Positions 1-23,217 of a stretch of 24,268 nucleotides of DNA are shown piece after piece. A program made the translations under genes and the position numbers. The stretch is from IMG/VR virus record IMGVR_UViG_3300025073_000165, positions 1 through 24,268 of that record, one strand, 5' to 3'. The DNA comes from a virus. A model generated the notes under the pieces. That model made no database searches. It worked only from the letters and a program-made list of their open reading frames with translations, and was not told the origin of the DNA. The stretch's first letter is position 1, and every line of letters begins with the position of its first letter.

Positions 1-2909
1 GCAGGGTAGTTCGTCGTATTCCCCCACCCGCTTTGGAAGATGATATGTGGATCGGTGCCGTAGAGTGTTTCCGCCGTGCGCACCTGCTCCATCACCATGT
101 TCTGCCAGTCGGTGGAGTCGGTCTGGTCCTCGTTGCTGACTTCTAGGATGACGGCCCGGTTGCCGACGGTCTGCACCAGGCGATTGATATAGGCTTTCTG
201 CGCGTTGGTGATGTTCACGTCTGCAAGGCTATGAGCTTCTTCACAGGCCTCGTTCGCATTCGTATCGCACGAGATCCCGTTGATGTTGTTCCCGCTGTAG
301 AACGGATGGGAGAACCCTGCATTCCACGAGGTCGGCAGGCCGTACATGAGATGCCCGCCGCTGAACATGGTGATGATGGGCGTGATGCCTCGAGCGAGTG
401 CCGCGTCAATCCGCTGGCTCACACGGTCGAAGAAGGACTGATTGAGGTCAGCCAGGTCGTACACGCCGACGACAATGTTGGTTCCCGTCGAGGTATCGGT
501 GCGCGTGGTGCCCGTCCACTGCCAGGGGAGCTGTGTAAAGGGCAGGTGGAGGTAATCACTGGCGGCACATGTTGCATCGGAGCACCAGTTGGTTTGCTCC
601 AGCGTCCAGTACCGGACCCAGTTGCCTCCCTCTGCGACCACATCATCCAGCATGGTCACATAGTCGGCTACAATCGGGCCTGCCCGAAACTCGGTGGCTG
701 ATCCGTTGGAGGCGGTCGTTTGGGTGTTCATCATCAGGCCCACACGGCCGGTCTGGTAGGTAGCATCGGTCGCACTGAGCAAATTGACCCAGGTCGCCCC
801 GCTGTCCGTTGAGCGGTCCAGGTATATCGTGTCGCCAATGGCTCGGCAGCGGACGATGTTCCCCGTGGCCCATGTGATCGCATTCTCTGACGTGAGCACC
901 GTGGAGACATCGTTCGCGACCCGTTCAATGCGGGAGGTCTGCCCGCCCCCGTTCAGAATGGCCGCACAGGCGTAGCCGTTGGACGCCCCGCCAGGGTCGG
1001 ACATCCGCACATAGGGGCGCATGTAACTGAATCCCGCGCCGGTCCACGTCCCTAAGGTGACTTGGGCGAACTGATCGCCAAAGAGCAATTCGTTTCGCGA
1101 CTCGACCCCGTTCCCTGGGTCCACGCTCTCATACACCACGCCGGAATTTTTCGTGAGTGCGACCGTGTTGGTATAGCCTCCCGTCCAAGAGGTGCCGATG
1201 TCCGATGCGGTGCCGTCGAAGGTGTCAATGATCGTCGTGGAGGTGATGAGATTATTCAGGTCTGACCGAACAATGTCCTGTAAACCACAATACGAGGCCG
1301 TGCAGTTATTCCCACCGCTGATCCCCACGCGATAGATCGCCGTGGAGCCGTCCAACGTCAGCCAGCGGGGGTTACTTGAGAGCTTGCGGAGATAGGTGCC
1401 GGTGGGTGTGGCCCCCGGTGCCGCAGGCGTCACGCTATTGCAACGGTACTCAATCGGGTCCTCAGCGGCCACGGCATCACGCGCATGGGCACAAGCCCAG
1501 TTCGTCGTCGCGGGCCAGTTGAAGGAGAGCGCCCCACCTAGCACTTGCTCCAGCGTACGGATGATTTGGCTATTCCAGAACGTCCCGTCGCCGTTCGTGC
1601 CGCCGAAGGCGATGCGGAAGTCCGTTGGGGTGCCGGTGTAGGTGATCGTCCCGCCGGTGGCCGTGGTCGTAAAGTTGGTCACGGTTGGCAGGGTCGTCGC
1701 GGCGTTCGTGGTCACATCGACAATGGACGAGAATGTACCGACGTTATTGGAGGTATCTTGCGCGGCCACCCGCAGCCGATAGAGCGTATTGGCCGCAAGG
1801 CCGGTCCAGGTGAAGTTATTCTGTCCGGCTGGTCTCGTGCCGACCGTCCCAAAGTTCGTACAGGCGGCCCCCGTGCAGCCCTGAATCGTGTACTGCTGCA
1901 AGTCCGATTCAGTGTTGGCCGTCCAGGTGTAGGAGATGGAGCCCGCCGTCTTGGAAGGCGACGAGAGCCCTGCGACTTGAGCGGGAGGCGTCGTATCAGA
2001 GGGAGGCGGTGCGCCAGAGCAGCCTACGCGGGTCGTATCAACCCGCACGTTGTCATACCACATATCTCCGAGGCCGTCTTGGCGATAGAATCTAAATCGA
2101 AACCATCGCGCATCTGACGGCATACGGTCTGATGGTGTGGCCCCGAGAAATTCCCGATTGGTGTAGGACGCGAGCAACATAGACGGTCCGCCGAGGGTCA
2201 TGTCTTGCGCGTAGAGAAGATATTGCCCGTTCGCAACTCCTGGATCGTTCAGTCGGTAATTGGCCTCATAGCAGACCCATCGACCCTTGGGCTGGCTATA
2301 GCCTTGTACGTTGTGCCACATGTTCTCAGTGTCATATGGCACAGGCTGAAAACCGCCAGACGCAGGCCCTCTCGCGTCTTTGATGCCTTGTGCAGAAAGC
2401 GTCAGTTGCGTGCCGCCATAGAAATAATGGAAGACCCAGCCATTTTCTTGCCCGGTCGAAAGGGACTTCATGTACATGTACAGTCCCTTTGTGGCTACCG
2501 ACCTGACGAGGAGCGGGTCAGATTCATCACCTCCCGTCTTAAAGTTTCCGTCGAATCGGTGATACCAGGTGATCCAAATGTCTTTCCGTAGCGATCCATC
2601 AAACCCGAGAAAATCATAGGAGCACGAGCCTCCCCCTTGAGGAGGGTTGGCATACTGTGACCCCGTATAGCGTTGCCGGATTGAAAACGGCCCAGAAAAT
2701 ACTTGCGCGGTACTGACCGCTTGTTCATTCGTAGTGACTGCAAATGGCGACGGAGAGCTGTAACTGCATCCGTATCTCGATTGCAACGCCGATACGGTCG
2801 CTGCTTCGTCCCCATAGTTGTCAAACGTGTCACTAAACAACGTTACAGCATGGACAGGGCCAGCCATGACCCCTATCATCAGCACGGCACAGAGTAGTCG
2901 TAACAGCAT
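1..2909 (-). CDS. Large secreted multidomain protein, FN3 plus glycoside-hydrolase-like C-terminus (3' end cut off)
   Basis: An uninterrupted minus-strand frame of about 969 codons runs from an ATG at 2909 off the left edge; a GAGGA Shine-Dalgarno site sits 5 bases upstream. Residues 1-21 look like a Sec signal peptide ending in VHA. Residues about 22-300 form a beta-rich region resembling jelly-roll polysaccharide-binding or lyase folds. Residues about 303-403 read as a fibronectin type III domain (begins DTTPPAQVAGL). Residues about 556-743 resemble a concanavalin/laminin-G sandwich. From about 746 the sequence looks like a TIM-barrel glycoside hydrolase, with a SNED motif whose E927 would fit the acid/base Glu after strand 4 of clan GH-A. 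Domain calls are by eye. It is last in the late region, so a tail-associated or host-surface glycan-degrading protein is inferred. A signal peptide on such a protein is unusual for a virion component. Confidence 0.85.
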   Translation of the reverse strand, partial: MLLRLLCAVLMIGVMAGPVHAVTLFSDTFDNYGDEAATVSALQSRYGCSYSSPSPFAVTTNEQAVSTAQVFSGPFSIRQRYTGSQYANPPQGGGSCSYDFLGFDGSLRKDIWITWYHRFDGNFKTGGDESDPLLVRSVATKGLYMYMKSLSTGQENGWVFHYFYGGTQLTLSAQGIKDARGPASGGFQPVPYDTENMWHNVQGYSQPKGRWVCYEANYRLNDPGVANGQYLLYAQDMTLGGPSMLLASYTNREFLGATPSDRMPSDARWFRFRFYRQDGLGDMWYDNVRVDTTRVGCSGAPPPSDTTPPAQVAGLSSPSKTAGSISYTWTANTESDLQQYTIQGCTGAACTNFGTVGTRPAGQNNFTWTGLAANTLYRLRVAAQDTSNNVGTFSSIVDVTTNAATTLPTVTNFTTTATGGTITYTGTPTDFRIAFGGTNGDGTFWNSQIIRTLEQVLGGALSFNWPATTNWACAHARDAVAAEDPIEYRCNSVTPAAPGATPTGTYLRKLSSNPRWLTLDGSTAIYRVGISGGNNCTASYCGLQDIVRSDLNNLITSTTIIDTFDGTASDIGTSWTGGYTNTVALTKNSGVVYESVDPGNGVESRNELLFGDQFAQVTLGTWTGAGFSYMRPYVRMSDPGGASNGYACAAILNGGGQTSRIERVANDVSTVLTSENAITWATGNIVRCRAIGDTIYLDRSTDSGATWVNLLSATDATYQTGRVGLMMNTQTTASNGSATEFRAGPIVADYVTMLDDVVAEGGNWVRYWTLEQTNWCSDATCAASDYLHLPFTQLPWQWTGTTRTDTSTGTNIVVGVYDLADLNQSFFDRVSQRIDAALARGITPIITMFSGGHLMYGLPTSWNAGFSHPFYSGNNINGISCDTNANEACEEAHSLADVNITNAQKAYINRLVQTVGNRAVILEVSNEDQTDSTDWQNMVMEQVRTAETLYGTDPHIIFQSGWGNTTNYP

Positions 2910-2961
2910 TAGTTCCTCGCTGATCGTGTGGCGGCAGGATCGCCGCTGGATGATTGATCGT

Positions 2962-4542
2962 TCATACTCTTACGGCCCTGGGGCGTGCGCCTCCAATGAA
3001 CCAGGGGCCGCGATCTGGGTTTTGGCTGCGTCCATAGAGCGCCACACCCGTAATATCGACCAGATCAGTACAGGGATCGCCATTGGCGACTACGGCTGTC
3101 CGATTGCGCGGCTTAAAACTCGCCGTGGTAAAAGCCGTGTCAGACGGGGCGGTTAGTTGCGGATCGAGCGCCCCAGCGGCCACATTCGACGCGACCGTCG
3201 CAATCGTTGTCGCGGCACTTGGCGGATAATCGGTGGCATGAGTCGTCGGCCAATTCGCCGTATTGACATATCCTAACGCCGCGCCCGCTGCGCCGAATCG
3301 TGGATACCAGACATTGTGTGATTCGTCGAGAGCTGCGGCGGCAGATTTCTTATCAATCGCGCCCGCTTCCCCATACACCCCAACGCAATTTCTAATGACC
3401 ATCTGCGCTTGATAGGTCATCGTTACTCCGATAACGGCAAAGAGATGACTCCCATAATCTAGGCAGTTCCTAGCCGAAAGTGTCCCGTTCGCTGAGAGCG
3501 ACATGAAGCGATGCCCACAAAAATATCCGAGTGAGCATTCCGCGAAGGTCTCTCCTGTTCCTCCAGTTTCAATGGCGTGCAGCGCATGATGCTTCAAGAC
3601 GCATCGCTTCACCCACCATCGTGAGGTGCTCCGATTGTCAATCCCTACCCCCCTACCTGAATTGCTCCCGCTATCTCGATTGGCAAGCGTGAAATAGCCA
3701 TCTTCAAGACTATGGTACTGCCAGGTCGTATTCACACCAGCGTACACTTGCCCAATGCGGATGGTTTTCGTTGAAGGATTCGACGTACTGTAGATATAGA
3801 GCGTGCTGTAGCCGATGGAATCGTTGTCGCCCCACCCCATGACATTCACGGAGGTCAATGCCCCAACGGTCCCCATTTGCATCCCAACATTAGCCGAGTC
3901 GCAGACAAAGGCTCCGTCGATGGTGGCGCAAAACGGTTGCAGGAGCGACGGGTTTGAGAGGTCGGATCGACGTAAGTACCATTCATTTGCCACACTCGAT
4001 GCCGTCCATGTGTAGTTCGTATCAATCGTGCGCCCGCAATCAATCTCACAGCCGTTCAACATCCATCGACGCGGCGCAGTAGTGGTGCCATTGCTCGCCA
4101 GATCCATTGCCGCGATATTTGAACCCCCGGTCATCGCCGTCACGCATACCGAGGCCCCTGCCGTTTCATCGACCACGGTATTCGTGGCAATAAATGTAAT
4201 CTTCGATGCCGCCACTGTGGAAATGGTCAGTTGCTTGGAATTGAGTGGCGACCCATAGATTTGCACAACGTCTCCAGGCGCAAACGTGAACGTCGTCAGA
4301 TTTGTTCCCACGCTATTCAATGATCGATCGGACGCCTGAAAGGATAAGTCAGTCTTAAATCGCGTCGCCCGTGAGCTAAACACTTCACGGTAGGGGCCTG
4401 AACCTGCAACAAACTGCACCACATCGACCCCACCGCCAGAGATCCCATTCCGAAGATGCTCTAGCGACTGATACGCATCCGCCGCCGAAGTGCCGTTATT
4501 CGATCCAGTCGTAAGCCGATTGTCTACATATCGTGTCGTCAT
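2962..4542 (-). CDS. Spike-like protein, probable parallel beta-helix
   Basis: A 526-residue frame starting at ATG 4542, preceded by AGGAG at proper spacing. It has no signal peptide. The sequence is rich in G, S, T, N and short hydrophobic beta strands, with repeated segments of the kind seen in right-handed parallel beta-helices (for example GVGIDNRSTSRWWVKRCVLK, then HALHAIETGG, then VIRNCVGVYGE). The N-terminus YVDNRLTTGSNNGTSAADAY resembles the start of many pectate-lyase-like cell-surface or phage tail-spike proteins. No catalytic residues can be assigned by eye. It lies between the large secreted protein and two short secreted beta proteins, which suggests a shared receptor-binding or glycan-binding role. 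A virion spike or a secreted lyase-like enzyme are both possible; the function is inference. Confidence 0.85.
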   Translation of the reverse strand: MTTRYVDNRLTTGSNNGTSAADAYQSLEHLRNGISGGGVDVVQFVAGSGPYREVFSSRATRFKTDLSFQASDRSLNSVGTNLTTFTFAPGDVVQIYGSPLNSKQLTISTVAASKITFIATNTVVDETAGASVCVTAMTGGSNIAAMDLASNGTTTAPRRWMLNGCEIDCGRTIDTNYTWTASSVANEWYLRRSDLSNPSLLQPFCATIDGAFVCDSANVGMQMGTVGALTSVNVMGWGDNDSIGYSTLYIYSTSNPSTKTIRIGQVYAGVNTTWQYHSLEDGYFTLANRDSGSNSGRGVGIDNRSTSRWWVKRCVLKHHALHAIETGGTGETFAECSLGYFCGHRFMSLSANGTLSARNCLDYGSHLFAVIGVTMTYQAQMVIRNCVGVYGEAGAIDKKSAAAALDESHNVWYPRFGAAGAALGYVNTANWPTTHATDYPPSAATTIATVASNVAAGALDPQLTAPSDTAFTTASFKPRNRTAVVANGDPCTDLVDITGVALYGRSQNPDRGPWFIGGARPRAVRV

Positions 4543-4560
4543 GTCGCTCCTATCACTCGC

Positions 4561-4941
4561 TTATTTATAACTCGCTGAACAGTCCACATCTGCGGTGGTG
4601 GTGAAGTCGAAGTAGAGTCCTGTCGCAAATTCCTGATCCAGAGTGATCGTGACAGGCGGGAAGTAGGCGGCGACGAAGGTGATCTGCTGCATGACGGTTC
4701 CCGCTCCAGCGGCCACGGCATCACGAATCGCCACGGTTCCGGCTGTCGCTGCCGCATCCGATGCGCACGTCACGGTATGGACCATGCCTGCGCCGGTCTT
4801 GATGAGGGCGTCTGCGGTCTTATCCCCACTGGATTTATATCCAGGTCCTCCCGCGTCGGACGCCACATACCCCGATCCAGCAGTAGCCCATGACGGACAG
4901 CCCAGCAACACGAGTACAATCGCCCATTTAATAGCTAACAT
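4561..4941 (-). CDS. Short secreted beta-rich virion-like protein
   Basis: The chosen start is the ATG at 4941 (126 residues), preceded by AGGAG seven bases upstream. A longer in-frame start exists but would run deep into the upstream gene. The N-terminus MLAIKWAIVLVLLGC is a signal peptide, cleaved either after ATA (signal peptidase I) or at the LLGC cysteine (possible lipoprotein). The mature part contains ALIKTGAGMVHTV and ends LYFDFTTTADVDCSASY. This pattern is common in small phage head- or tail-associated beta-sandwich proteins. The gene overlaps the end of 4928-5443 by 14 bases, so the two are probably translationally coupled, and they look like distant relatives. Exact function unknown. 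Confidence 0.8.
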   Translation of the reverse strand: MLAIKWAIVLVLLGCPSWATAGSGYVASDAGGPGYKSSGDKTADALIKTGAGMVHTVTCASDAAATAGTVAIRDAVAAGAGTVMQQITFVAAYFPPVTITLDQEFATGLYFDFTTTADVDCSASYK

Positions 4942-5443
4942 AGACAGCTCCTGTGGCTGAGGTTCCCGAGGTGGCGGTGGTAACAACGTAGTAGTAGGAG
5001 AACGGTACGTCGGTTTTGCAGAACGATTGATCGCGGGTGGTCCCAGAATTAACGAGGGTGCAGACGACAGCTCCGTTTGCCGCATCGTTATCGACATCGC
5101 CGTAAACGGTTTGGGTTTGCAGGACTGAACCTGTCCCAACCACTTGCCCGTAGAAGGTCTTCATGCCAGTCGGCACAGCAAAGGCCGCGGTGGTCCCGTT
5201 GGCAGTGGCTGATGCCCCCATTGTCACGGTGATTTGACGGACCACGCCTCCGCTGGTTTGGATCAAGTTGTTCGCTTGGTCTTCGCCGGAGATCAGGACC
5301 ATGAGGTTGACCTTGAGATTCCCGTTCTCATCAAACAGAAACCCGCCGCTCCCAACCCCGAATTGTGCCAGCGCATCCATGGCCAGTCCGATGCAGAGCA
5401 CAAAGACTAACGTGTACGCTGACCCTCGCAGAAATGATTTCAT
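4928..5443 (-). CDS. Short secreted beta-rich virion-like protein
   Basis: The start is ATG 5443, with AGGAG eight bases upstream, giving 171 residues. The N-terminus MKSFLRGSAYTLVFVLCIGL followed by AMDALA is a textbook Sec signal peptide: positive n-region, about 14 hydrophobic residues, ALA cleavage site. The mature part includes NNLIQTSGGVVRQITVTMG and ends in GAVYVSY, the same architecture as the next protein (4561-4941): a small all-beta domain with an 'LI-TGAG-V'-type segment. Such domains occur in phage virion proteins, but usually without an export signal. The neighbouring pair with signals suggests a secreted or surface-displayed module encoded in the late operon. Function not known. 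Confidence 0.82.
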   Translation of the reverse strand: MKSFLRGSAYTLVFVLCIGLAMDALAQFGVGSGGFLFDENGNLKVNLMVLISGEDQANNLIQTSGGVVRQITVTMGASATANGTTAAFAVPTGMKTFYGQVVGTGSVLQTQTVYGDVDNDAANGAVVCTLVNSGTTRDQSFCKTDVPFSYYYVVTTATSGTSATGAVYVSY

Positions 5444-5453
5444 GGGGTGACTC

Positions 5454-6290
5454 CTATCCGGCATAGCGCACCTTGGCGTCGATCCGGTTCTGTGAATTGG
5501 CCACGCTGATCGCCGCGCACACGGCATCGCATTGAGGCGGCAGATAGATGTCCGCCCCACCGAGATTGCTGAGGATGTTGTTGTCGGGTAAGGCTTCGCT
5601 GGAGAGGAACATCCGGCCCAGGACCCCGATATTGCCGGTCCCGGCCGAGACGCTGCCGGCCGTGGTCTGCTTCACGAGAATGGCGTACCCAGAGGGCACC
5701 GTGGCGCCATGCCGGTTGATGATGGCCGTGGCCGACGTCACAGGCACCCAGTCAACCGGAGGCTCGAACCAGATCAGTTGTTCCCCGGTCGACGTAAAGA
5801 GCGGCGCCACGTAGGGGTTGCTGATCGTGCCCCAGTTGCTTGAGAAACCGGTGCCGGCTGTGGCGATGGAGTAATGCAGGGAGAAGGCGGGCGAGCCGCC
5901 CGAGGCTGCCGTTCCCACCACAATGGAGGCGATATTGAACGGGACCGAACACGAAATCACAAAGCCGTCGTCGTTGGTGCTGGTTGTCCCCAAGAGGAAA
6001 TCGTCGGTTCCGGCGTCCTGCCAGTCGGTCGTGTCGTCGGCAAAGACGGTGCCGGCCGCATAGGCGGAATCGTCCCAGTGCCCGGCTTGCCAGAGCGACA
6101 CGGGGAGCCGTCCCCCAATGCCCGCCACCGCCGAACTCCCGGAACGGTTCTGCAGGTTAAATTCTCCGATGACGAAGCGGGATCCTTGGCTGTTTGCAGG
6201 ACGAGTGAGCAACGCGAGGGCATCGCTCTGACTGGTCAGGAACTTCGTCGCAAAGCTCCGGCTGATGGATTCGTAGAGATAGCTTCTCAT
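5454..6290 (-). CDS. Virion-region protein of unknown function
   Basis: The start is ATG 6290 (MRSYLYESIS; 278 residues), preceded by AAAGGAG six bases upstream. An in-frame ATG five codons earlier has no better ribosome site. There is no signal peptide and no membrane segment. The sequence is rich in G, S, T, V and aromatic residues and looks all-beta after a short helical N-terminus (SRSFATKFLTSQSDALALL). It contains SLWQAGHWDDSAYAAGTVFA and DWQDAGTDDFLLG segments, suggestive of a structural or decoration protein. It sits among the genes downstream of the major capsid gene and eleven bases upstream of the first secreted beta protein. No specific family recognised. Confidence 0.8.
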   Translation of the reverse strand: MRSYLYESISRSFATKFLTSQSDALALLTRPANSQGSRFVIGEFNLQNRSGSSAVAGIGGRLPVSLWQAGHWDDSAYAAGTVFADDTTDWQDAGTDDFLLGTTSTNDDGFVISCSVPFNIASIVVGTAASGGSPAFSLHYSIATAGTGFSSNWGTISNPYVAPLFTSTGEQLIWFEPPVDWVPVTSATAIINRHGATVPSGYAILVKQTTAGSVSAGTGNIGVLGRMFLSSEALPDNNILSNLGGADIYLPPQCDAVCAAISVANSQNRIDAKVRYAG

Positions 6291-6303: not shown

Positions 6304-6322
6304 ACTGACTATCGAGATAGTT
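6304..6322 (-). repeat. Intergenic quasi-palindrome, copy 1
   Basis: In the minus direction this reads AACTATCTCGATAGTCAGT. The core ACTATC-TC-GATAGT is a perfect 6-bp inverted repeat. It begins inside the TAA stop codon of 6321-7055 and ends just before the ribosome site of the gene starting at 6290. It matches related sites at 10860-10878 and 23421-23439. Confidence 0.5.
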
Positions 6323-7055
6323 ACCGTCGCGCCCCGCGTCGGCTGGCGGTCTCTTTCGGAACGCCCCGCGCTACCCGCTCTTTCGCCATTTCCTGCTCCA
6401 CGTCGGTCAAGTCCGCGTCTTTCGGCCCGGCTACGGTATCCGCGGCATGATCGGTGAACGCATGGAAATCAGGGGTCGGATGCCAGCGCATCGAGGGCTG
6501 GCCCCGCTCGTCTTTCACTTCGAAATCCGGCGTGAGATACCCCGAGGCTGGATTGCCCGGCTGTGCCCAGCGAGCCCCTTCCGGCAACTGAAAGGCTGCG
6601 GATTCGACCGAACCGGGTGCGGCCATCATTTGATCCTGCCCGTACCCATCGCTGTGATGGTTGACCTGCGCCCCTTGCTTGAGTGAATCGGCCACCGGTC
6701 CCAGCACTTGCTCGATGGACAAGAGGAGCCGTGCTGCAATCTCGTTGGGCATGTTGGTAATCGCCTGACTCAGCCGATCCTTCACGGATCCCCCGGCTAA
6801 AAGCGGCGTCATGCCCTGCTGCACCGCGGCCGGTTTCGGGAGGTTCTTCGTCCGATCCAGCCAGGCCGCCACGTCGGCTTGTGTCCCTGGATCCAGAGCC
6901 GCGACTTGCGAGAGATCTGTCACCACGACGGCATCCTTACCTTTGCCAAACTGCCATTGCCCATTGGGTAACTCATAGAGTTCTGTCGTAGCCCCACCTT
7001 GGCCATACAGACTCACCACGCGCTTGACAAGAAAATCGCCCGCTAACCGTTGCAT
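6321..7055 (-). CDS. Hypothetical late-region protein
   Basis: The start is ATG 7055 (MQRLAGDFLVKRVVSLYGQ; 244 residues), with AAAGGA six to seven bases upstream. The apparent longer frame would overlap the preceding gene and has unnatural arginine-rich composition. The N-terminal ~60 residues are beta-like (LYELPNGQWQFGKGKDAVVV). The centre is helical (NMPNEIAARLLLSIEQVLGP). The C-terminal ~100 residues are polar, with several proline-histidine stretches and a KERVARGVPKETASRRG tail. No catalytic motif or family recognised. Its position two genes after the major capsid gene suggests a minor virion or assembly protein, which is inference. Confidence 0.8.
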   Translation of the reverse strand: MQRLAGDFLVKRVVSLYGQGGATTELYELPNGQWQFGKGKDAVVVTDLSQVAALDPGTQADVAAWLDRTKNLPKPAAVQQGMTPLLAGGSVKDRLSQAITNMPNEIAARLLLSIEQVLGPVADSLKQGAQVNHHSDGYGQDQMMAAPGSVESAAFQLPEGARWAQPGNPASGYLTPDFEVKDERGQPSMRWHPTPDFHAFTDHAADTVAGPKDADLTDVEQEMAKERVARGVPKETASRRGARR

Positions 7056-7120: not shown

Positions 7121-8071
7121 CTAGGTAATGACGGTGATGAGTGTTTCGCCGGTCCCGCCGCCGATCGTGGCGGTATGGTTCGCCACCAGTTCGGCATGTG
7201 ATGTGGTCCCGAAGCCGTCGACCAACAAGGTGACCAGGACGCCCTTCCGGCAATCCTTGAACAACACACCCGCAATAACGGTGGTGCCGGATCCGGTAAA
7301 GCAGGCCGTCATGGCCGTGCCGCCGCAGGTCGCCAGATCCCGGTCGACAATCAGGCCGTCAATGTCTGCCAGATTGACCGCCGAGGCCCAGGTGCCCGCG
7401 TCCACATGGTAGTGGTTCAGTCGGAATAGCCCGTTGAGGTTGGCGCCGGTGAGCGTGACAGCCGGCCCTTGCGCTCCATCGGACCACGCGACATTGTTCT
7501 GGAAGAGGAAATTGTCGATCGCGGCCGATCCGACAAACCCTGATGTGCCGATATTCACGGCAGGGGTCGCCAGATCGATGTAGCACCCGTCAATGGTGAG
7601 TCCGTCTGCCGCCCCGGTAAAGGTCGCAAACTCCTCGGTCGTGACCGGTACACAGGTCAGTCCATTGAACGAGACGTCCGCACCGGTGATGTTAAAGGCC
7701 TCATCCCCGGCCGGATTGACGATGATGGAGCTTGGCTTTCTCACGGTCCGCCCAACCCAGGCTTCCGCGCCCCACAGCGACACCCCGCTCTTGGCGAGTG
7801 CCACGGAGGCGGTTGGGGTATGAGTGCCAGGCAAGCACACGATCGCATCCCCGCGTCCGTCCACACAGTCCGCATAGGCCAGATTGATCGTGTCGTAGAC
7901 GAAGGCGTTATTCTCCCGCGCCCATTGCTGGGCACTGGCCACCGTATAGCCCGAGACATAGGCCGTCGTCGGCGCCACGTAATGGACCTTGCCAGGGATC
8001 AGGGCCGCTCGGCCGATGTACTTATCGTTGCGGAACCGGTTCCACACATTTTTGTCACGAATCGTCAACAT
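7121..8071 (-). CDS. Probable beta-helix structural or tail-spike protein
   Basis: A 316-residue frame from ATG 8071, preceded by AAAGGAG. An N-terminal segment NVWNRFRNDKYIGRAALIPG leads into a domain with an ordered-event pattern (AQQWARENNAFVYDTINLAY, VCLPGTHTPTASVALAKSGV). The rest has beta-helix-like rungs (VSFNGLTCVPV, LTIDGCYIDLA, NFLFQNNVAWSDG, LFKDCRKGVLV). Such a series of short 'xIxGCxI'-type strands is typical of right-handed beta-helix folds in phage spikes and pectate-lyase-like proteins. There is no signal peptide. It lies two genes downstream of the major capsid gene, so a virion spike or decoration role is plausible. The fold is inferred from sequence pattern only. Confidence 0.82.
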   Translation of the reverse strand: MLTIRDKNVWNRFRNDKYIGRAALIPGKVHYVAPTTAYVSGYTVASAQQWARENNAFVYDTINLAYADCVDGRGDAIVCLPGTHTPTASVALAKSGVSLWGAEAWVGRTVRKPSSIIVNPAGDEAFNITGADVSFNGLTCVPVTTEEFATFTGAADGLTIDGCYIDLATPAVNIGTSGFVGSAAIDNFLFQNNVAWSDGAQGPAVTLTGANLNGLFRLNHYHVDAGTWASAVNLADIDGLIVDRDLATCGGTAMTACFTGSGTTVIAGVLFKDCRKGVLVTLLVDGFGTTSHAELVANHTATIGGGTGETLITVIT

Positions 8072-8145: not shown

Positions 8146-8790
8146 TTATGTTCCCAAGTACCCAGCGGTCAGGTTCAGGTACTCCTCGGGCTTCGGCACC
8201 CCCAGCACAAAGGCGAGGGCGGACGAGCCCGCGGTACACGCGGTCGCCACATCCACGTCAATGCTGTTGCCTGGCTTACAGAGCACCGGCCCGGTGGCCA
8301 TCAGGCTCTTGTAGACCACGGCGCCGATCGCCTGGGCGGTCGTCGCATTGGGCGCGGTCACGGTTCCATAGGTGCCATCGAGGTTCGAGGCAATGATGGT
8401 CCCGAGTCCGTTGATCGCGGGGTACAGATCGAAGTCCACCTTCGCGGGTGTGGTCGTGCCGGCTACCCCGAAGGTAAAGCCGATGGTATCGACCAGGAAC
8501 CAGTCGAAGATGTTGAACTGGCCTTCTGAACCAGTCCCGCTGAAGTCCATGACGCCCGCAATGTCCGGCTGCAGCCAGCGTCGGCTTTCATAGCCGTACA
8601 AGGATCCCGCCAACCGCGGGAGCGGGTTCGCCAGTAAGCCACGTCCCAAGGCTTCCGCCATGGACGGCGCAAACTGCACGCCCTTGTGAATGTCCAGCGC
8701 GAGCGGCAAATCCTCCTCATGCTGGATCATCTTGCCGAACTGGGTCCGCTTGGCCCAGTTCCAGAGTCGATTGAAGTTATACAGTCTCAT
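8146..8790 (-). CDS. Hypothetical virion protein downstream of the capsid gene
   Basis: 214 residues from ATG 8790, with GGAGGAAA seven bases upstream. The N-terminus (MRLYNFNRLWNWAKRTQFGK) is basic and aromatic. The rest looks like a mixed beta protein with FNIFDWFLVDTIGFTFG in the middle and a C-terminal beta segment (AFVLGVPKPEEYLNLTAGYLG). There is no signal peptide, zinc site or coiled coil. Its location directly after the major capsid gene, with an intergenic palindrome between them, suggests a head or head-to-tail component. No homologous family recognised. Confidence 0.8.
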   Translation of the reverse strand: MRLYNFNRLWNWAKRTQFGKMIQHEEDLPLALDIHKGVQFAPSMAEALGRGLLANPLPRLAGSLYGYESRRWLQPDIAGVMDFSGTGSEGQFNIFDWFLVDTIGFTFGVAGTTTPAKVDFDLYPAINGLGTIIASNLDGTYGTVTAPNATTAQAIGAVVYKSLMATGPVLCKPGNSIDVDVATACTAGSSALAFVLGVPKPEEYLNLTAGYLGT

Positions 8791-8845: not shown

Positions 8846-9802
8846 CTAGGACGAGGTAAAGTAGACGCTCCGCGCTTCGCCATCGTTCGCTGAATCGCCC
8901 CAGGTGTTGGCAAACCCGAGGATGCCGTACCAGGCCACCGACCGCTGCCGGCCGAAGTCGCCAGGGATACCGGCCAGGAGTTCCGGGGCTTCGACTTCGG
9001 CCAAGGCCAGAATGTCGTCACCAAAGAACACCGCTTCTCCCACGGCGCTGCCCGTTCCGCGCTCGGTCAACACGTTGTCGTGGTCGACCTCGATGAACCG
9101 GCACTTTTCCACTTCGCCAATTTCGGCGTTGTAGAACACGTCGCCGGGGCGGAGGTACTGCCGCCAGGCATGAAACTCGGGATCGTCCTTGACGCCCCGA
9201 CAGGCCTTGGTGGAGGCCAAGACCATGTAGACCTGGCCTTGGTAGGGATCGACATGCAGGGTTTTCCGCATGTAGTCCCGGATCATCTTGATGTGCGCCA
9301 CGGTCATGTTGTTCGTCCCCGTCACCGAGGTCGAACCGCCGTCCGTGGTGAAGGTGCCGCCGATCCCACTGGTGGGGCCGAATCGGACCTGTCCGTTCTT
9401 GATCGCCGTACCGGCCACGGTATCGATCGTGAGCTTCATCTGCTTCTTGAGTGACTTCTGAATCGCGTTCTCAATGTCGAACTTGTTCAGAAGTTGCACC
9501 TGGCGGGTGTAGCCCACCCCACGGCCGAACTCAGTGACCGTGATCGACCGCGTGGACATGGCCATCGGATCGATCGGCACCTTGCCAGCCTGGGACAGCA
9601 CCGCCGACGTCGGCTCCGCAATGTTGCGGATCCGCTGAATCGTGACGGTATCGCCCATATGGGAGCCAAACCCCGGTTCCGGTCTGGCGAACTGCACCAC
9701 CAGCGTTTCCGCAATGCTGGCAAAGCGCAGTTCGCTACTCAGCGCATGGTTGCGCGAGACGCCTGACGTAATATCGGGAGTCCACTGAAAATTTCCTGCC
9801 AT
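8846..9802 (-). CDS. Major capsid protein, N4-gp56-like
   Basis: 318 residues from ATG 9802 with AGAGGAG nine bases upstream. It builds the icosahedral head shell. The sequence has the features of the N4-gp56 type of HK97-fold capsid proteins: an N-terminal arm, then GDTVTIQRIRN, then the conserved VTEFGRGVGYTRQ segment. These are followed by long helix DIENAIQKSLKKQMKLTIDT, an MIRDYMRKTLHVDPYQGQVY segment, and a C-terminal VEVDHDNVLTERG/VFFGDDILALAE region. The length is close to the usual 300-400. The scaffold-like gene lies just upstream and the portal beyond it, the normal head-gene order. There is no sign of a separate protease domain in it. The family assignment is by recognition of motif and order, not by database search. 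Confidence 0.88.
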   Translation of the reverse strand: MAGNFQWTPDITSGVSRNHALSSELRFASIAETLVVQFARPEPGFGSHMGDTVTIQRIRNIAEPTSAVLSQAGKVPIDPMAMSTRSITVTEFGRGVGYTRQVQLLNKFDIENAIQKSLKKQMKLTIDTVAGTAIKNGQVRFGPTSGIGGTFTTDGGSTSVTGTNNMTVAHIKMIRDYMRKTLHVDPYQGQVYMVLASTKACRGVKDDPEFHAWRQYLRPGDVFYNAEIGEVEKCRFIEVDHDNVLTERGTGSAVGEAVFFGDDILALAEVEAPELLAGIPGDFGRQRSVAWYGILGFANTWGDSANDGEARSVYFTSS

Positions 9803-11398: not shown

Positions 11399-13257
11399 GC
11401 GGCTCCTTGTGTGTCGGTTGGGCCTGGGCCAGCCGCCATCGGTTTACCGGTTTCCGGATCTCTCCCGGCTCCCTGTGCGGCGAGCTCGGCCGCCCTGGCT
11501 TGCTCTTGCTGAAGTTCGAAGGCCATTTCTTCCTCAGTCTTAATGACTTCCGGCGCATCCATGGCGTCCCCGATCTTGCGAATCATCTTGTCGTCCTTGG
11601 CGAACGGATGGAATCGGGGGCTGTCCGTCAGCTTGGCCATGTTCACCAGACGATCGACCAGGGCCGACTTCTGGAACAGGATCGACACCCCCCGGATTTC
11701 AATGTCCGTTTCCTGTTTCACCGCTTCGACGCGCTGCTCGGGGGAGAGCATGGCGATTTGCCCTAAGATCGCTTCGTGTTTGCGACCGAGAACCTGCAAA
11801 TAGCTGGGCGAATCCCACGGATCCCAGTAGGTCGTGAGCACATCCTGTGTCATCTCTAGGAGTTGTTCACCGCCGTACTCCACATCATGGCCAATGCCTT
11901 CGAACACCCCCAAGGCTTGCTGGGTCTTGATTTCCACCTCGCCCTTGGTAATGTCCTTGCGCTCGCCCATCTCGCCCTTGAGGAGTTCCGTGACAAACAC
12001 CCCGTTTTGAAACAGGTTCCCGGTCAAGCCCATCATTTGCTCGACGGCCCCGAGGAAATCGGCCGCATCCTGCTTGATTGCGGTATAAGCCGGTCCGTTC
12101 GCGTTCATCTTCTTCGACTTCGTACAGCCGGGGTAGAGCTCCTTGTCAGCCGGGTTGACCAGCTTCGATTCGTCCACTTCCCAGGCCCCATTCAAGACGA
12201 AGCTCAACCGATCGGCGGTCATGGAGAGGATGTTGTTGCGGAATTTCCACATCTTCAGCATGCCGTCGATGAGGGAATAGCCGTGGAAGTTCCGCAGGTG
12301 CGGGAGCGGAGCAAACTGATGAATCGGCCAGCGGATCTTGGGGAAATTCGTTGCTACCGGTCTCTTAATCACCGTGCGATTGGCCACCGTCATGCGGACG
12401 TTCGGCAACACCATCTCCCCGTTATGGTCGAGGACGGAGCCCCAAAACTCACGGACAAAGACCTGGGGGCGGAATTTATGCGAGTAATCGACCAACCCAC
12501 GCCGCTTGCGTTCGTTGCGGCGGTCCCAGGTGCCTTCGTCCCCTCGATCCTTCAGGCAGTCCCGGACGTTCTCGTAACGGCCATCCTCTTCGCCTTGCAA
12601 TAGGACGTGGTAATCGATCCAGTCTTGATGAATGCAGTAGAGGCCCGATTGCGGTTCTCTCGACATGGCATCGGCATCGCGCCGTAATTGCCAGGGGAGG
12701 ATTTTGACGAAGCGCAGGCCTTCAGAGCCGTCCGGATTGGTCTGCCATACCGCCTTGACGCCTAAGCTCGTCCCGATCGCAAAGCCCATCTCCGTCATGT
12801 CCGGAAAGAACTGCGTCATCTTGGTGCGCTTGGACCAGAACCGAAGGGTATCTTTCCAGAAGTTCACCTTCGCCATAATGAACGGATCGTCTTTTTGATC
12901 CGTGGTCACGTCGAACCAGTTGGGCTGATCCACGACGGCCTTGCGGACAAGCATTTTGGCTTGTATGACGGTCTGGAAGGGTTCGTTGGTCGTGATCTTG
13001 GCTTGCCAGTCCTCTTTCAAGGCCAGCTCTTTCATCTTGTTTTCGTGCGCGTCCCAGAGCTGTTCATCGAACTTCATGCGCTCATCGTCGGTGCGCTCGG
13101 TGTGCTTGACGCATTCCTCGACGTACTCGACCAAATGCCCGTCTTGCAGGCCTGACGCCTGATCGTCAAACAGGGCCGCAAAGTCCTCGTCCGGCAAGTC
13201 TCGCAATTCTGCGATTCCGGCTTGGAGTTCGGCGTCCGTGATGCCAAAGGCTGGCAC
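11395..13257 (-). CDS. Portal protein
   Basis: 620 residues, starting with GTG at 13257 (reads PAFGITDAELQ after the initiator); AAAGGA lies nine bases upstream and the previous small gene's TAA immediately precedes the start. The protein forms the dodecameric channel through which TerL pumps DNA into the head. Support: size typical of podovirus portals, location between terminase and scaffold/capsid, and portal-like mixed alpha/beta content. It includes a WQAKITTNEPFQTVIQAKML region, an RPVATNFPKIRWPIHQFAPL segment and a long helical C-terminal part with GVFEGIGHDVEYGGEQLLEM. A Q/A/P-rich tail closes it. Homology is judged by overall pattern and order, so a search would be needed to name the family. 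Confidence 0.82.
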   Translation of the reverse strand: MPAFGITDAELQAGIAELRDLPDEDFAALFDDQASGLQDGHLVEYVEECVKHTERTDDERMKFDEQLWDAHENKMKELALKEDWQAKITTNEPFQTVIQAKMLVRKAVVDQPNWFDVTTDQKDDPFIMAKVNFWKDTLRFWSKRTKMTQFFPDMTEMGFAIGTSLGVKAVWQTNPDGSEGLRFVKILPWQLRRDADAMSREPQSGLYCIHQDWIDYHVLLQGEEDGRYENVRDCLKDRGDEGTWDRRNERKRRGLVDYSHKFRPQVFVREFWGSVLDHNGEMVLPNVRMTVANRTVIKRPVATNFPKIRWPIHQFAPLPHLRNFHGYSLIDGMLKMWKFRNNILSMTADRLSFVLNGAWEVDESKLVNPADKELYPGCTKSKKMNANGPAYTAIKQDAADFLGAVEQMMGLTGNLFQNGVFVTELLKGEMGERKDITKGEVEIKTQQALGVFEGIGHDVEYGGEQLLEMTQDVLTTYWDPWDSPSYLQVLGRKHEAILGQIAMLSPEQRVEAVKQETDIEIRGVSILFQKSALVDRLVNMAKLTDSPRFHPFAKDDKMIRKIGDAMDAPEVIKTEEEMAFELQQEQARAAELAAQGAGRDPETGKPMAAGPGPTDTQGAA

Positions 13258-13634: not shown

Positions 13635-14168
13635 TTACGCCCAATGCCAGGTGCCGGGAACGTGCTGCTCGGAATACGTGGCGATAATCTCGCCCTCGCG
13701 GACTCCTGGGGCCTGGCCCAAGCGAATGCGCGTGGCGCCATCAGGTTGCACACCAACGAGCGTACAGGCGACCATCTGACGGCACTCGCCGCCCATCTCG
13801 CGGATATAGACACCGCCGCGGCCTACCTGATTGAGGAACGCATTTACCGGTTCAGGAGTGGCATCGGGTTCTGGAACGGGTTCGGGAAGAGTCTCATCGA
13901 TCGTCTCGACCACAGGAGGCGGGAGGGGGTCAGGATCATCGGGAGCAATGGGTTCGGGAAGGGTCTCATCGATCGTCTCGACCACAGGAGGCGGGAGGGG
14001 GTCAGGATCATCGGGAGCAATGGGTTCGGGAGCGGGAGCATCCGCATCAACCGTGGGAGCCGCCTCGATGGGAGCATCCGGAGATTCGACGTTCTCCGCG
14101 TCTACCGGTGAGGCTTCGGGTAGGTTTTGGTCAACGGCTGGGATCTGTTCGCCTTGTTCGTCACTCAT
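13635..14168 (-). CDS. Acidic proline-rich repeat protein with globular C-terminus
   Basis: 177 residues from ATG 14168 with GGAGG seven bases upstream. Residues 1-105 are disordered-looking and strongly acidic, rich in P, E, D, A. They include a 24-residue unit (PEPIAPDDPDPLPPPVVETI, then DETL) present twice in tandem. From about residue 107 a compact domain begins (NAFLNQVGRGGVYIREMGGE; VGVQPDGATRIRLGQAPGV) with two Cys. First gene after the terminator at 14181-14227, hence probably the first gene of the head sub-operon. Such flexible acidic linkers can be scaffold-like or hub-binding, but the function is unknown. Confidence 0.75.
   Translation of the reverse strand: MSDEQGEQIPAVDQNLPEASPVDAENVESPDAPIEAAPTVDADAPAPEPIAPDDPDPLPPPVVETIDETLPEPIAPDDPDPLPPPVVETIDETLPEPVPEPDATPEPVNAFLNQVGRGGVYIREMGGECRQMVACTLVGVQPDGATRIRLGQAPGVREGEIIATYSEQHVPGTWHWA
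13878..14031 (-). repeat. 72-bp tandem duplication, about two copies
   Basis: A 72-bp unit occurs twice in a row, with TCATCGATCGTCTCGACCAC beginning at 13894 and again at 13966. The copies differ at only one base over the stretch compared. It encodes the duplicated 24-residue proline/acidic repeat of 13635-14168 and keeps frame, so it can expand or contract by slippage. Confidence 0.9.
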
Positions 14169-14679: not shown

Positions 14680-15165
14680 CTATGGCGTCAGATAGCTCAA
14701 CGAGAAATAGACGTCCGACCCGTTCCCGAGAATGCTATTCCCACTCATGCCAGTTGCGGCCGCAGTCAGGCTGTAGAGCGACATGCTGGTGGTGCCATTG
14801 GGTCCAAGCAGCCCCACCACATTGACAACCGACAGCGCCAATCCATTCACGTAGACTGGGGCAATCGCATACGCAAAGGGGTCCAGGTCAATCGGGTAGG
14901 GAAATCCGGTAATGATGTACGGCGAGCCGGTCCCGATGGTGGCAATGCTCATGCGACAAAAGACGGTCACCAGCTTCCCAATCTTGGTATAGGTGCCCAC
15001 TTGATTGGTGTAGGTCGAGGTCCCGCCCACCGTAGGCGTCCAGGTTCCTACCGGAGAATCTTCTGAGGTAATGAAGGACGCGGCGGGCATAGCCGGGGGG
15101 ACCGTGCCGCAGGCCGTGACCAGGGCCAGCACCAGGGCCAGAGTGAACTTCTTGAGCAACAGCAT
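14680..15165 (-). CDS. Lipoprotein with a tail-fibre-like domain
   Basis: 161 residues from ATG 15165, with GGAGG eight bases upstream. Residues 1-18 (MLLLKKFTLALVLALVTA) followed by Cys-19 are a clear lipoprotein signal, lipobox LVTAC, so the mature protein would be lipid-anchored in the cell envelope. The mature part contains SPVGTWTPTVGGTSTYTNQV and GTYTKIGKLVTVFCRMSI. This 'GxWTPxxGG.TYT..G.YTKIG..V' motif is very common in phage tail-fibre and host-specificity domains. A fibre-like fold joined to a lipoprotein signal is unusual: it could be a host-surface decoy or exclusion factor rather than a virion protein. The neighbouring HNH gene follows directly upstream. Confidence 0.82.
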   Translation of the reverse strand: MLLLKKFTLALVLALVTACGTVPPAMPAASFITSEDSPVGTWTPTVGGTSTYTNQVGTYTKIGKLVTVFCRMSIATIGTGSPYIITGFPYPIDLDPFAYAIAPVYVNGLALSVVNVVGLLGPNGTTSMSLYSLTAAATGMSGNSILGNGSDVYFSLSYLTP

Positions 15166-15197: not shown

Positions 15198-15671
15198 TCA
15201 TTCGACATGCTTCCATGTCCTTCTCCTGATAATGGCCCATACGGCAAAATCTGATACCCCGTATATTCGTGCCAATTCAGTTTGCGGAACGGTAAGAGAG
15301 AGTTGACGAATCGCCTTTACGTCATCCTCCTTTAATTTCGAGTCAGGATGACTTTCTCCTCGACAATGACGCTGCCTCGACTTGGAATACATATCGTTGA
15401 GATTGTCTTGATGAGTGCCGAGAAAGAGATGAGACGTTCTCAAGCATTTAGGGTTATCGCAACGATGACAGACCTCTTGCCCGTCAGGGATTCGGCCATG
15501 CGTCATTTCCCAAACGATGCGTGAGACATGACCTTTCTTCATAACGGGCCGTCGATGCTCAGGCTTCTTTGCCCCGCTCATTGCTCCAGTCCATTCCCTA
15601 CATTCTCCATTCGGCTGAATGCGGACAGCGATGCGCTCTTCAAGGGACATGAATCCCCAAGCGTAACCCAT
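15198..15671 (-). CDS. HNH homing-type endonuclease
   Basis: 157 residues. The start at ATG 15671 is chosen because GGGGAGG lies eight bases upstream and the previous gene's TAA abuts it; an internal ATG eight codons in has a weaker site. The central domain is an HNH_3-type nuclease: HVSRIVWEMTHGRIPDGQEV then CHRCDNPKCLRTSHLFLGT and HQDNL, with the usual H...N...H order and Cys pairs for metal. A C-terminal domain (SKLKEDDVKAIRQLSLTVPQ; ELARIYGVSDFAVWAIIRR) looks like a helix-turn-helix, as in phage free-standing homing enzymes. It would nick or cut DNA at a specific site to spread its own gene. It interrupts an otherwise coupled gene chain, consistent with insertion. Confidence 0.88.
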   Translation of the reverse strand: MGYAWGFMSLEERIAVRIQPNGECREWTGAMSGAKKPEHRRPVMKKGHVSRIVWEMTHGRIPDGQEVCHRCDNPKCLRTSHLFLGTHQDNLNDMYSKSRQRHCRGESHPDSKLKEDDVKAIRQLSLTVPQTELARIYGVSDFAVWAIIRRRTWKHVE

Positions 15672-18376: not shown

Positions 18377-18735
18377 GCGGTTCTCCGTTGTCTCGCGGCC
18401 TGCCGCCGTCGTTCGTGCCGGTTGCGGGGTTCCATCGCTTCGGCCTTTGGAACGTCCATCATCGGCATCGGCACACTGAAATAGATTTGCTCGGGTGTCA
18501 GGACTTCACAAGCCACCATCAACCGGCCCATCTTCTCGGTCACCATGAACTTCATCCAGCCCTCTCGCGTGAACATCGAACGATTCATGGTCTCCGCTTG
18601 CTCGGCCATGTCGATCGTTCTCCTGGCCCATCGTGGGAACTGATCGACTGAATCACTGGCGTTCAGTCGGTCAGACGGCACCAGCAAGCGAGGGCGGAGG
18701 CGAGACTCAGACAGCATAGCTCTTAGCCCTTTCAT
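18373..18735 (-). CDS. Hypothetical protein downstream of the HNH gene
   Basis: 120 residues if started at ATG 18735, which overlaps the HNH stop as ATGA. An in-frame ATG at 18717 (114 residues, MLSESRLRPRLLVPSD) has an AAAGGG site nine bases upstream and may be the ancestral start before the HNH gene arrived. The sequence is helical and Met/Arg-rich (ARRTIDMAEQAETMNRSMFT; MVACEVLTPEQIYFSVPMP) and ends in a strongly basic tail (RNRHERRRQAARQRR). This tail suggests nucleic acid contact. No family recognised. Confidence 0.7.
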   Translation of the reverse strand: MKGLRAMLSESRLRPRLLVPSDRLNASDSVDQFPRWARRTIDMAEQAETMNRSMFTREGWMKFMVTEKMGRLMVACEVLTPEQIYFSVPMPMMDVPKAEAMEPRNRHERRRQAARQRRTA

Positions 18736-19316
18736 AGAAACAGCACCGGCTGATAGCTCGGTGCTTCTCTCGTGTTCTTCCGTGAGTTGCAGGATTGACA
18801 GGCTGGAACAATATTCGCCTTATCATGTAGCCCTCCTTTGGCAAGAGGAATGACATGATCCTGAGTCAACGGCTTCTTTTTCTGGCAGTACACACACCGA
18901 TAACCGTATGCCGCCTTCATCGCTCCCCACTCTTTTCCCGTGAATACGTTCGCTCGGCATCCAGCTTTCAATGCTCGGCGTTTCGCGTTATGGACGGCAC
19001 GGTAATCTCTGTGTGTCTCACGATACTCACGGCTATTCATCTTTACTTGTTCAGGATGTTGAACGCGCCAGGTTCGACCGATCGCCTTCACCTTGTCAGG
19101 ATTCTGCTTGTAGTATTCACGCTGCCAAGCTGTTTTTCGTTCACGATTGGCCAAGTAATATGCTCGATCTGACGCCTTCCTCTTTGCTTTATTCTTGAGA
19201 TAGTACGCATGCTTCACGGAGGCAACATGCTCTTTATTCTTCTCAGCGAGCACCTTTCGCCTCTCCTTGTTCTTTAGGTACCAGGCGTGCGCTTGTTCTT
19301 TCGTTTGGGCCATCAT
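18732..19316 (-). CDS. HNH endonuclease with an N-terminal YxxN-type repeat region
   Basis: 194 residues from ATG 19316 (or the next codon, also ATG), with GAGG six bases upstream. Residues 1-105 are a charged helical region of repeated units of about 13-15 residues (WYLKNKERRKV, YYLKNKAKRKAS, YYLANRERKTA, YYKQNPDKVKA), a known DNA-binding-like extension of phage HNH enzymes. The C-terminal domain has YGYRCVYCQKKKPLTQDHVI, then PLAKGGLHDKANIVPACQSC and NSRKN: CxxC pairs, DH and N residues of a canonical zinc-stabilised HNH nuclease. It probably acts as a free-standing homing endonuclease, sitting between terL and the next gene, a frequent landing place. Confidence 0.88.
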   Translation of the reverse strand: MMAQTKEQAHAWYLKNKERRKVLAEKNKEHVASVKHAYYLKNKAKRKASDRAYYLANRERKTAWQREYYKQNPDKVKAIGRTWRVQHPEQVKMNSREYRETHRDYRAVHNAKRRALKAGCRANVFTGKEWGAMKAAYGYRCVYCQKKKPLTQDHVIPLAKGGLHDKANIVPACQSCNSRKNTREAPSYQPVLFL

Positions 19317-22603: not shown

Positions 22604-22762
22604 ATGGTGCTCTTGAATCCAGTCTCCATCAGGTTTTCAGCTAAGCAGCAGGCTTGGCTCCAAGAGGAGGCGCAACGACAAGACCATGATCGCGTGGCCG
22701 TGGTCGTGCGTGGGTTAGTGGACAAGGCCATGATTGCCTCAGCGAAGAAAGGCAAGCGATGA
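22604..22762 (+). CDS. Small ribbon-helix-helix-like DNA-binding protein
   Basis: 52 residues from ATG 22604, with GGGAGG five bases upstream. The pattern is that of a CopG/Arc-type ribbon-helix-helix domain: a beta strand VSIRFS, then helix AKQQAWLQEEAQRQ, turn DHDRV, then helix AVVVRGLVDKAM. This would make a dimer that binds direct or inverted repeats as a repressor. It is first in the rightward operon and lies next to the tandem 11-bp repeat, which suits autoregulation. It overlaps the GIY-YIG gene by ATGA. The domain call is from residue pattern; it has no clear partner toxin next to it. Confidence 0.7.
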   Translation: MVLLNPVSIRFSAKQQAWLQEEAQRQDHDRVAVVVRGLVDKAMIASAKKGKR

Positions 22763-23217
22763 AGAAGCACGCGCAGACCATCTACGGCTTGACCGATGAG
22801 CACGGACTGATCCGGTACGTCGGGCAAACGTGCAATCTGCGAAGTCGCTTCCAGGATCATGCCAAACGGCGCGATCTCCCGTTCTCAGTCTCCGGTATGG
22901 CGATCCTCACAGTCACCAAGGATCAAGCGGAGGCCAATGAGGCAGAGAAAGCATGGGTTGCGTTCTTCGGACAAGACAACCTCTGCAACAACACTGAAGG
23001 AGGCATGGCAGGCGTGCGAGTCACCACCATGACCGGCCCTGAGCTGAAAGCCTGGAGAGCGGAGCGCGGATTATCTCAAGAAGCCTTGGCGCGACTGCTC
23101 AACGTGGCCAACAACACCGTGCATCGCTGGGAAACGGGAGCCAGGGCTGTCCATCCGTTTATGCCCGAGATGCTCAGAGGCATCGAGAAACGCAACCCTG
23201 AACTACGGAAACGCTAA
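22759..23217 (+). CDS. GIY-YIG nuclease fused to an Xre-type helix-turn-helix
   Basis: 152 residues from ATG 22759, translationally coupled (ATGA) to the RHH gene. Residues 1-85 are a GIY-YIG domain: IYG (Y9) and RYVGQT (Y20), R30 and H34 in NLRSRFQDH, a Glu (E61 or E63) in EANEAEKAW, and N77 in LCNNTEGG. All the expected catalytic positions are present. Residues about 90-140 form a second domain, MTGPELKAWRAERGLSQEAL then ARLLNVANNTVHRWETGARA, a clear Xre/Cro-family helix-turn-helix like that of MqsA-type antitoxins. Such a fusion would let the nuclease bind a specific operator or site. It may be a homing endonuclease, a regulator or a defence enzyme; the biological role is open. Confidence 0.85.
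   Translation: MKKHAQTIYGLTDEHGLIRYVGQTCNLRSRFQDHAKRRDLPFSVSGMAILTVTKDQAEANEAEKAWVAFFGQDNLCNNTEGGMAGVRVTTMTGPELKAWRAERGLSQEALARLLNVANNTVHRWETGARAVHPFMPEMLRGIEKRNPELRKR

Follow-up and report, generated by a model that had tools for sequence, protein, structure and literature searches.

Since tailed phages are put together inside the cytoplasm, and their fibres and spikes ordinarily lack a signal peptide, signals on tail-type genes are unexpected. Why, then, should a run of genes at the end of a phage late operon, beside those for the virion, encode proteins that begin with Sec signals? The locus that raises this question belongs to a linear virus record of 24.3 kb from an uncultured podovirus, the whole of which is called the window here. 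Its main genes lie on the (-) strand, and the late genes follow the order small and large terminase, a JAB-type protein, portal, scaffold, major capsid protein, four conserved genes and, finally, the four genes that we call the block.

The major capsid protein (8846-9802 (-); phrog_1357, E 1.3e-15) is the marker of the family; relatives with 86-95% identity occur in uncultured virus contigs, and the capsid proteins of E. coli and Vibrio podoviruses are about 27-28% identical. Gene order around the capsid is collinear between the window and six relatives in the 86-95% range. The conserved genes 3' of the capsid (8146-8790, 7121-8071, 6321-7055 and 5454-6290, all (-)) end with s5454, a virion-module gene without a signal that precedes the block; its homologues in the capsid relatives are 49-78% identical, and in L005, where we looked for one and found none, the block directly follows the homologue of 6321. 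One relative, G003, has a 127-base terminal repeat and is therefore probably a complete 64-kb genome. Another, G002, sits within a Nitrospira MAG, but naming Nitrospira as the host is unjustified, since mis-binning is possible and the capsid gene occurs in just one of 175 genomes of that MAG's family. Long ORFs of 3480 and 3813 aa in relatives (L015 1-10442 (-) and L017 5840-17365 (-)) were considered as an N4-like virion RNA polymerase, a reading rejected because the first of them matches DarB-like antirestriction, DNA methyltransferase and SNF2 helicase profiles instead; the giant ORF may encode an anti-restriction protein that this podovirus family injects from the virion. Elsewhere in the window, an HNH endonuclease gene (18732-19316 (-); phrog_8660, E 9.8e-21) lies between the terminase and JAB genes, and 13635-14168 (-) encodes a protein rich in proline in which a PIAPDDPDPLPPPVVETIDETLPE stretch is repeated; inspection by eye adds a second HNH-like gene (15198-15671 (-)) and, on the strand opposite the late genes, a GIY-YIG-like N-terminus joined to an HTH motif (22759-23217 (+)).

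Three of the four block genes combine a ribosome-binding site with the n-, h- and c-regions of a Sec signal and an AxA-like cleavage site. The first, sp1 (4928-5443 (-), 171 aa), has its predicted signal at 5443-5366 and reads MKSFLRGSAYTLVFVLCIGLAMDALA^QFGVGSGG, so that the mature protein would begin QFGVGSGG. The reading frame of sp2 (4561-4941 (-), 126 aa; signal 4941-4879; MLAIKWAIVLVLLGCPSWATA^GSGYV) overlaps the sp1 stop by 14 nt. The third is a multidomain protein of at least 969 aa that is cut by the window edge (3-2909 (-); signal 2909-2847; MLLRLLCAVLMIGVMAGPVHA^VTLFSD). Each ATG stands behind a Shine-Dalgarno sequence (AGGAG, AGGAG and GAGGA, respectively), and the scores of 6.9, 6.1 and 6.5 all exceed the threshold of a rule-based scorer of signal peptides, which detects 12 of 12 classic signals from E. 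coli and places 3.7% of antisense ORFs above threshold; when the residues of these same N-termini were shuffled, 0.2-0.25% of trials scored as high. The signal peptides that the original prediction had placed on these three genes were thus recovered, at the same coordinates. In sp2 the signal peptidase I site ATA^GSG is accompanied by a possible lipobox, LLG^C, and the scorer does not separate cleavage by signal peptidase I from cleavage by II; in the former case the mature protein has two cysteines. The remaining gene, 2962-4542 (-), encodes a spike-like protein of 526 aa, with a beta-helix-like N-terminus by eye, that starts straight with mature-type sequence, gives no Sec/SPI call and contains an odd number of cysteines (11). 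It is probably not exported along with the rest of the block, and the suggestion that it acts outside the cell together with the exported proteins gained no support.

Chance can be excluded as the source of the window's signals because the same block is signal-rich in six relatives. Taking the block as the genes 3' of the s5454 homologue, up to the lysozyme and holin genes where a contig reaches that far, nearly all of its members there carry signals. With automatic gene calls, made blind, 18 of 22 block genes had a signal as against 4 of 167 other genes (Fisher p = 8e-18), and with curated starts every block gene has one, 2962-4542 being the sole exception. Alanine occupies position -1 in 20 of 22 signals. 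The block boundaries were drawn after the pattern had been seen, and contigs examined later (L029, ctLwi270 and L035) serve as its tests: L029 backs the pattern only in part, because its first block gene, which is beta-helix-like with a TM segment and an AAA-type site, scores below threshold, while the signals predicted in ctLwi270 and L035 support it. Control phages (PTXU04, N4, T7, lambda, P-SSP7, 219E41 and Bas95) gave 0-4 calls each, and the strongest of these fall on genes already known to work in lysis or at the membrane, among them Rz, Bor and Lom of lambda and the muramidase of N4. In the window, L003, L004, L006 and L007 the mature part of the first block product begins Q-x-x-x-GSGG or a variant of it.

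If these proteins are exported, their cysteines might be expected to reflect it, as exported bacterial proteins oxidised by DsbA favour even cysteine numbers (PMC7678975). Of the 17 block proteins that are complete, bear a signal and have any cysteine, 16 show an even count (range 2 to 22), compared with 61 of 119 elsewhere in the same phages, and cysteine content is 1.94% as against 1.00% (p = 4e-11), these counts including homologous proteins that are not independent samples. Such doubled, even-numbered cysteine is what oxidation outside the cytoplasm would lead one to expect, and it forms a line of evidence independent of the signal peptides that, like them, reaches across the relatives. 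The C-terminal 144 aa of sp1 are 47% identical to L005_1, with one pair (C-x13-C) conserved and a second present or absent as a pair, and the large spikes L004_4 and L006_4 differ at most cysteine positions, with even totals in both. Parity is weaker in the second lineage described below (four even, two odd), giving 20 of 23 even for both lineages combined.

This second lineage is represented by ctLwi270 (Podoviridae sp., MW202554.1, here L033; circular, 44.3 kb), which has a relative of s5454 (32% identity) and a capsid unrelated to that of the window, and by its relative L035 (s5454 identity 38%). Signals in ctLwi270 are found on an 846-aa protein, a 195-aa protein, a LamG lectin, a GH28 spike, the product of the gene after s5454 and a PF07484 tail collar protein. 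The collar protein (L033 17249-18274; PF07484, E 1.7e-23) is assigned a tail domain by Pfam and PHROG, and its gene follows the phage stabilization gene, the normal position for a tail fibre; the premise of the original prediction, that tail fibres and spikes carry no signal, is therefore contradicted in a relative. Among the annotated genes of ctLwi270 we recognised no candidate for receptor binding that lacks a signal. Its capsid relatives, ctEqG8 and Jasmine, yield no signal or one marginal call, and the tail fiber gene of ctEqG8, likewise placed after the phage stabilization gene, has none. With signals on the collar, GH28 and LamG proteins of ctLwi270 and essentially none in its capsid relatives, the block has the look of a module for adsorption or for action on glycans whose products take the Sec route. 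The L035 gene that follows s5454 (12140-12634) encodes a signal-bearing relative of sp1 (N-terminal motif 59% over 27 aa, E 1.6e-6), and the 1021-aa fibre of L035 has no signal, so that its virion may adsorb without export. As for the GenBank annotation of MW202554.1, the start of the endopolygalacturonase (GH28; L033 5946-7544) is placed too far 3', hiding the signal peptide, and the 195-aa signal-bearing gene (L033 4571-5158) is absent.

The domains predicted in the block and its relatives (fn3, beta-helix, LamG and GH28) point to glycan-related functions. The 3-2909 product matches fn3 in Pfam (E 4.9e-5, just under the cut-off) and the fn3 of chitinase A1 in a PDB search (E 0.015); by eye it has a jelly-roll-like N-terminus and a clan-A-like glycoside hydrolase region with LEVSNED, and in this edge-cut protein neither Pfam, which gave fn3 only, nor PDB returned a curated glycoside hydrolase family. 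No significant Pfam, PHROG or PDB match or phage relative was found for 2962-4542, searches of viral contigs and annotated phages returned no sequence relatives of sp1, 2962-4542 or 3-2909, and PHROG and Pfam gave no tail domain or tail PHROG for the window's block proteins. In the relatives, L005_3 is a right-handed beta-helix (E 4.8e-10) and L004_2 matches phrog_553, a minor tail protein (E 1.8e-10), which is weak as tail-domain evidence. Different exported spikes share a C-terminal domain (L004 12288-12824, L013 15858-16379 and L006 15686-16027; present in L004_4, L004_5 and L006_4) that has no significant PHROG match and belongs to no known family; it is possibly a docking or trimerisation domain. 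AlphaFold models, built from 2 sequences for sp1 and from 7 for s5454, were all-beta with a mean pLDDT of 49 for both and were discarded; a fold search with the sp1 model gave no PDB match below 1e-3, and its viral matches rest on a low-confidence model.

We propose that the small adaptor-like proteins, beta-helix spikes, and lectin-like and glycoside-hydrolase-like proteins of this podovirus family would enter the host Sec pathway and be cut by signal peptidase, forming disulfide bonds and folding outside the cytoplasm, and that the mature proteins would act there or after lysis. From the signals, the even and enriched cysteines and the conservation in two capsid lineages, all of them features of the sequences, we infer that export by itself is very probable, which upholds the exported products of the original prediction; that the proteins are exported, oxidised and active outside the cytoplasm is a fuller claim that we consider likely. 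As candidate roles, the envelope or capsule degradation, adhesion and superinfection block of the original prediction look alike at the level of sequence. More tentatively, and with slightly less than an even chance of being right, the mature proteins would at lysis meet virions assembled in the cytoplasm and attach to these to serve as spikes that bind receptors. Docking is proposed because one exported protein is a tail collar in the tail-fibre position and ctLwi270 has no recognised signal-less candidate to bind receptors. A search of the open-access literature found no precedent for phage tail proteins passing through Sec.

The docking step is where the main competing explanation departs, for it accepts export and holds that the proteins never join the virion, acting free or bound to surfaces, for example as depolymerases clearing a way for the progeny through capsule or biofilm, or as receptor-masking proteins that keep progeny from adhering to debris or keep superinfecting phages out. 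We regard this as a real possibility, if a somewhat doubtful one. Domains suited to binding and cutting glycans agree with it, as does the exported sp1-type protein of L035 beside a signal-less fibre. The window itself also holds, upstream of the portal, a putative lipoprotein of 161 aa (14680-15165 (-); MLLLKKFTLALVLALVTA^C; start behind GGAGGA) with an SPII lipobox scoring 8.7 at residue 18, a tail-fibre-like motif by eye (GTWTPTVGG..VGTYTKIGKLVTV) and a match to phrog_17970 (E 8.5e-4), for which the search gave no phage relative; it is a candidate receptor-masking or superinfection-exclusion protein, lipoproteins being known superinfection-exclusion factors (PMC11437467). In ctLwi270, however, the recognised fibre and spike candidates all bear signals, which would leave its virion without an obvious receptor-binding protein, and the collar fibre stands where a tail fibre normally does.

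Two further explanations would dispense with a function for export. The hydrophobic N-termini could be uncleaved virion anchors, or segments inserted into the membrane for DNA injection; BLAST aligns L004_1 and L006_1 over nothing but the signal and QLIQGG, as would be seen in the virion-anchoring N-termini of fibres. But the alanine at -1 speaks for cleavage, the abundance and even number of the cysteines indicate a compartment that oxidises, and the signals sit on unrelated proteins within one block, and we judge this reading improbable. Alternatively, secreted host enzymes may have been copied with their signals, of no use to the phage; secreted bacterial proteins are commonly of the GH28, LamG or beta-helix kind. 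Such neutral carry-over is hardly credible given that signals are retained on almost all block genes in six relatives, that the gene after s5454 carries one in two capsid lineages, and that a tail collar protein is among the bearers.

Compared with known systems, the proposed exported module resembles the podovirus tail spikes and PF07484 collar fibres of the P22/T7 type in late-operon position, modular and variable sequence, beta-helix and collar domains and phrog tail matches, but those proteins are signal-less and assembled in the cytoplasm, whereas the block proteins have Sec signals and even cysteine counts. The podoviruses of the Xuquatrovirus PTXU04, HelliStehle Bas95 and Vibrio phage 219E41 type, with capsid proteins about 27-28% identical to the window's, differ from the window family in that the stretches of them examined hold no adhesin block rich in signals; the tail fibres of Bas95 are short (PMC11990801). 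Like the block proteins, Lom and Bor of lambda and the superinfection-exclusion lipoproteins are phage products with Sec signals; however, exported genes of that kind are one or two small morons, while the window family has several consecutive late genes, including spikes of 500-950 aa, beside the virion genes. Although ctLwi270 resembles the window in its s5454 homologue, the exported protein right after it and the signals on spike, lectin and collar, it differs in its unrelated capsid and in having its spike block between the portal and capsid genes.

Whether the exported block proteins end up on the virion or serve as a secreted public good is the question that this study raises. The wider idea, that there are tailed phages that finish their adsorption apparatus outside the cytoplasm, with receptor-binding spikes and fibres that leave through Sec, are oxidised once in the periplasm and join the virion at lysis, is one that we advance with reservation, since we would not put it at an even chance. 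If it is true, cysteine-rich phage spikes would be explained, and the recognition and expression of tail-protein genes would change, as cytoplasmic expression might misfold their products; these podoviruses would then bring some of their infection machinery to maturity in an oxidising compartment and not in the cytoplasm.
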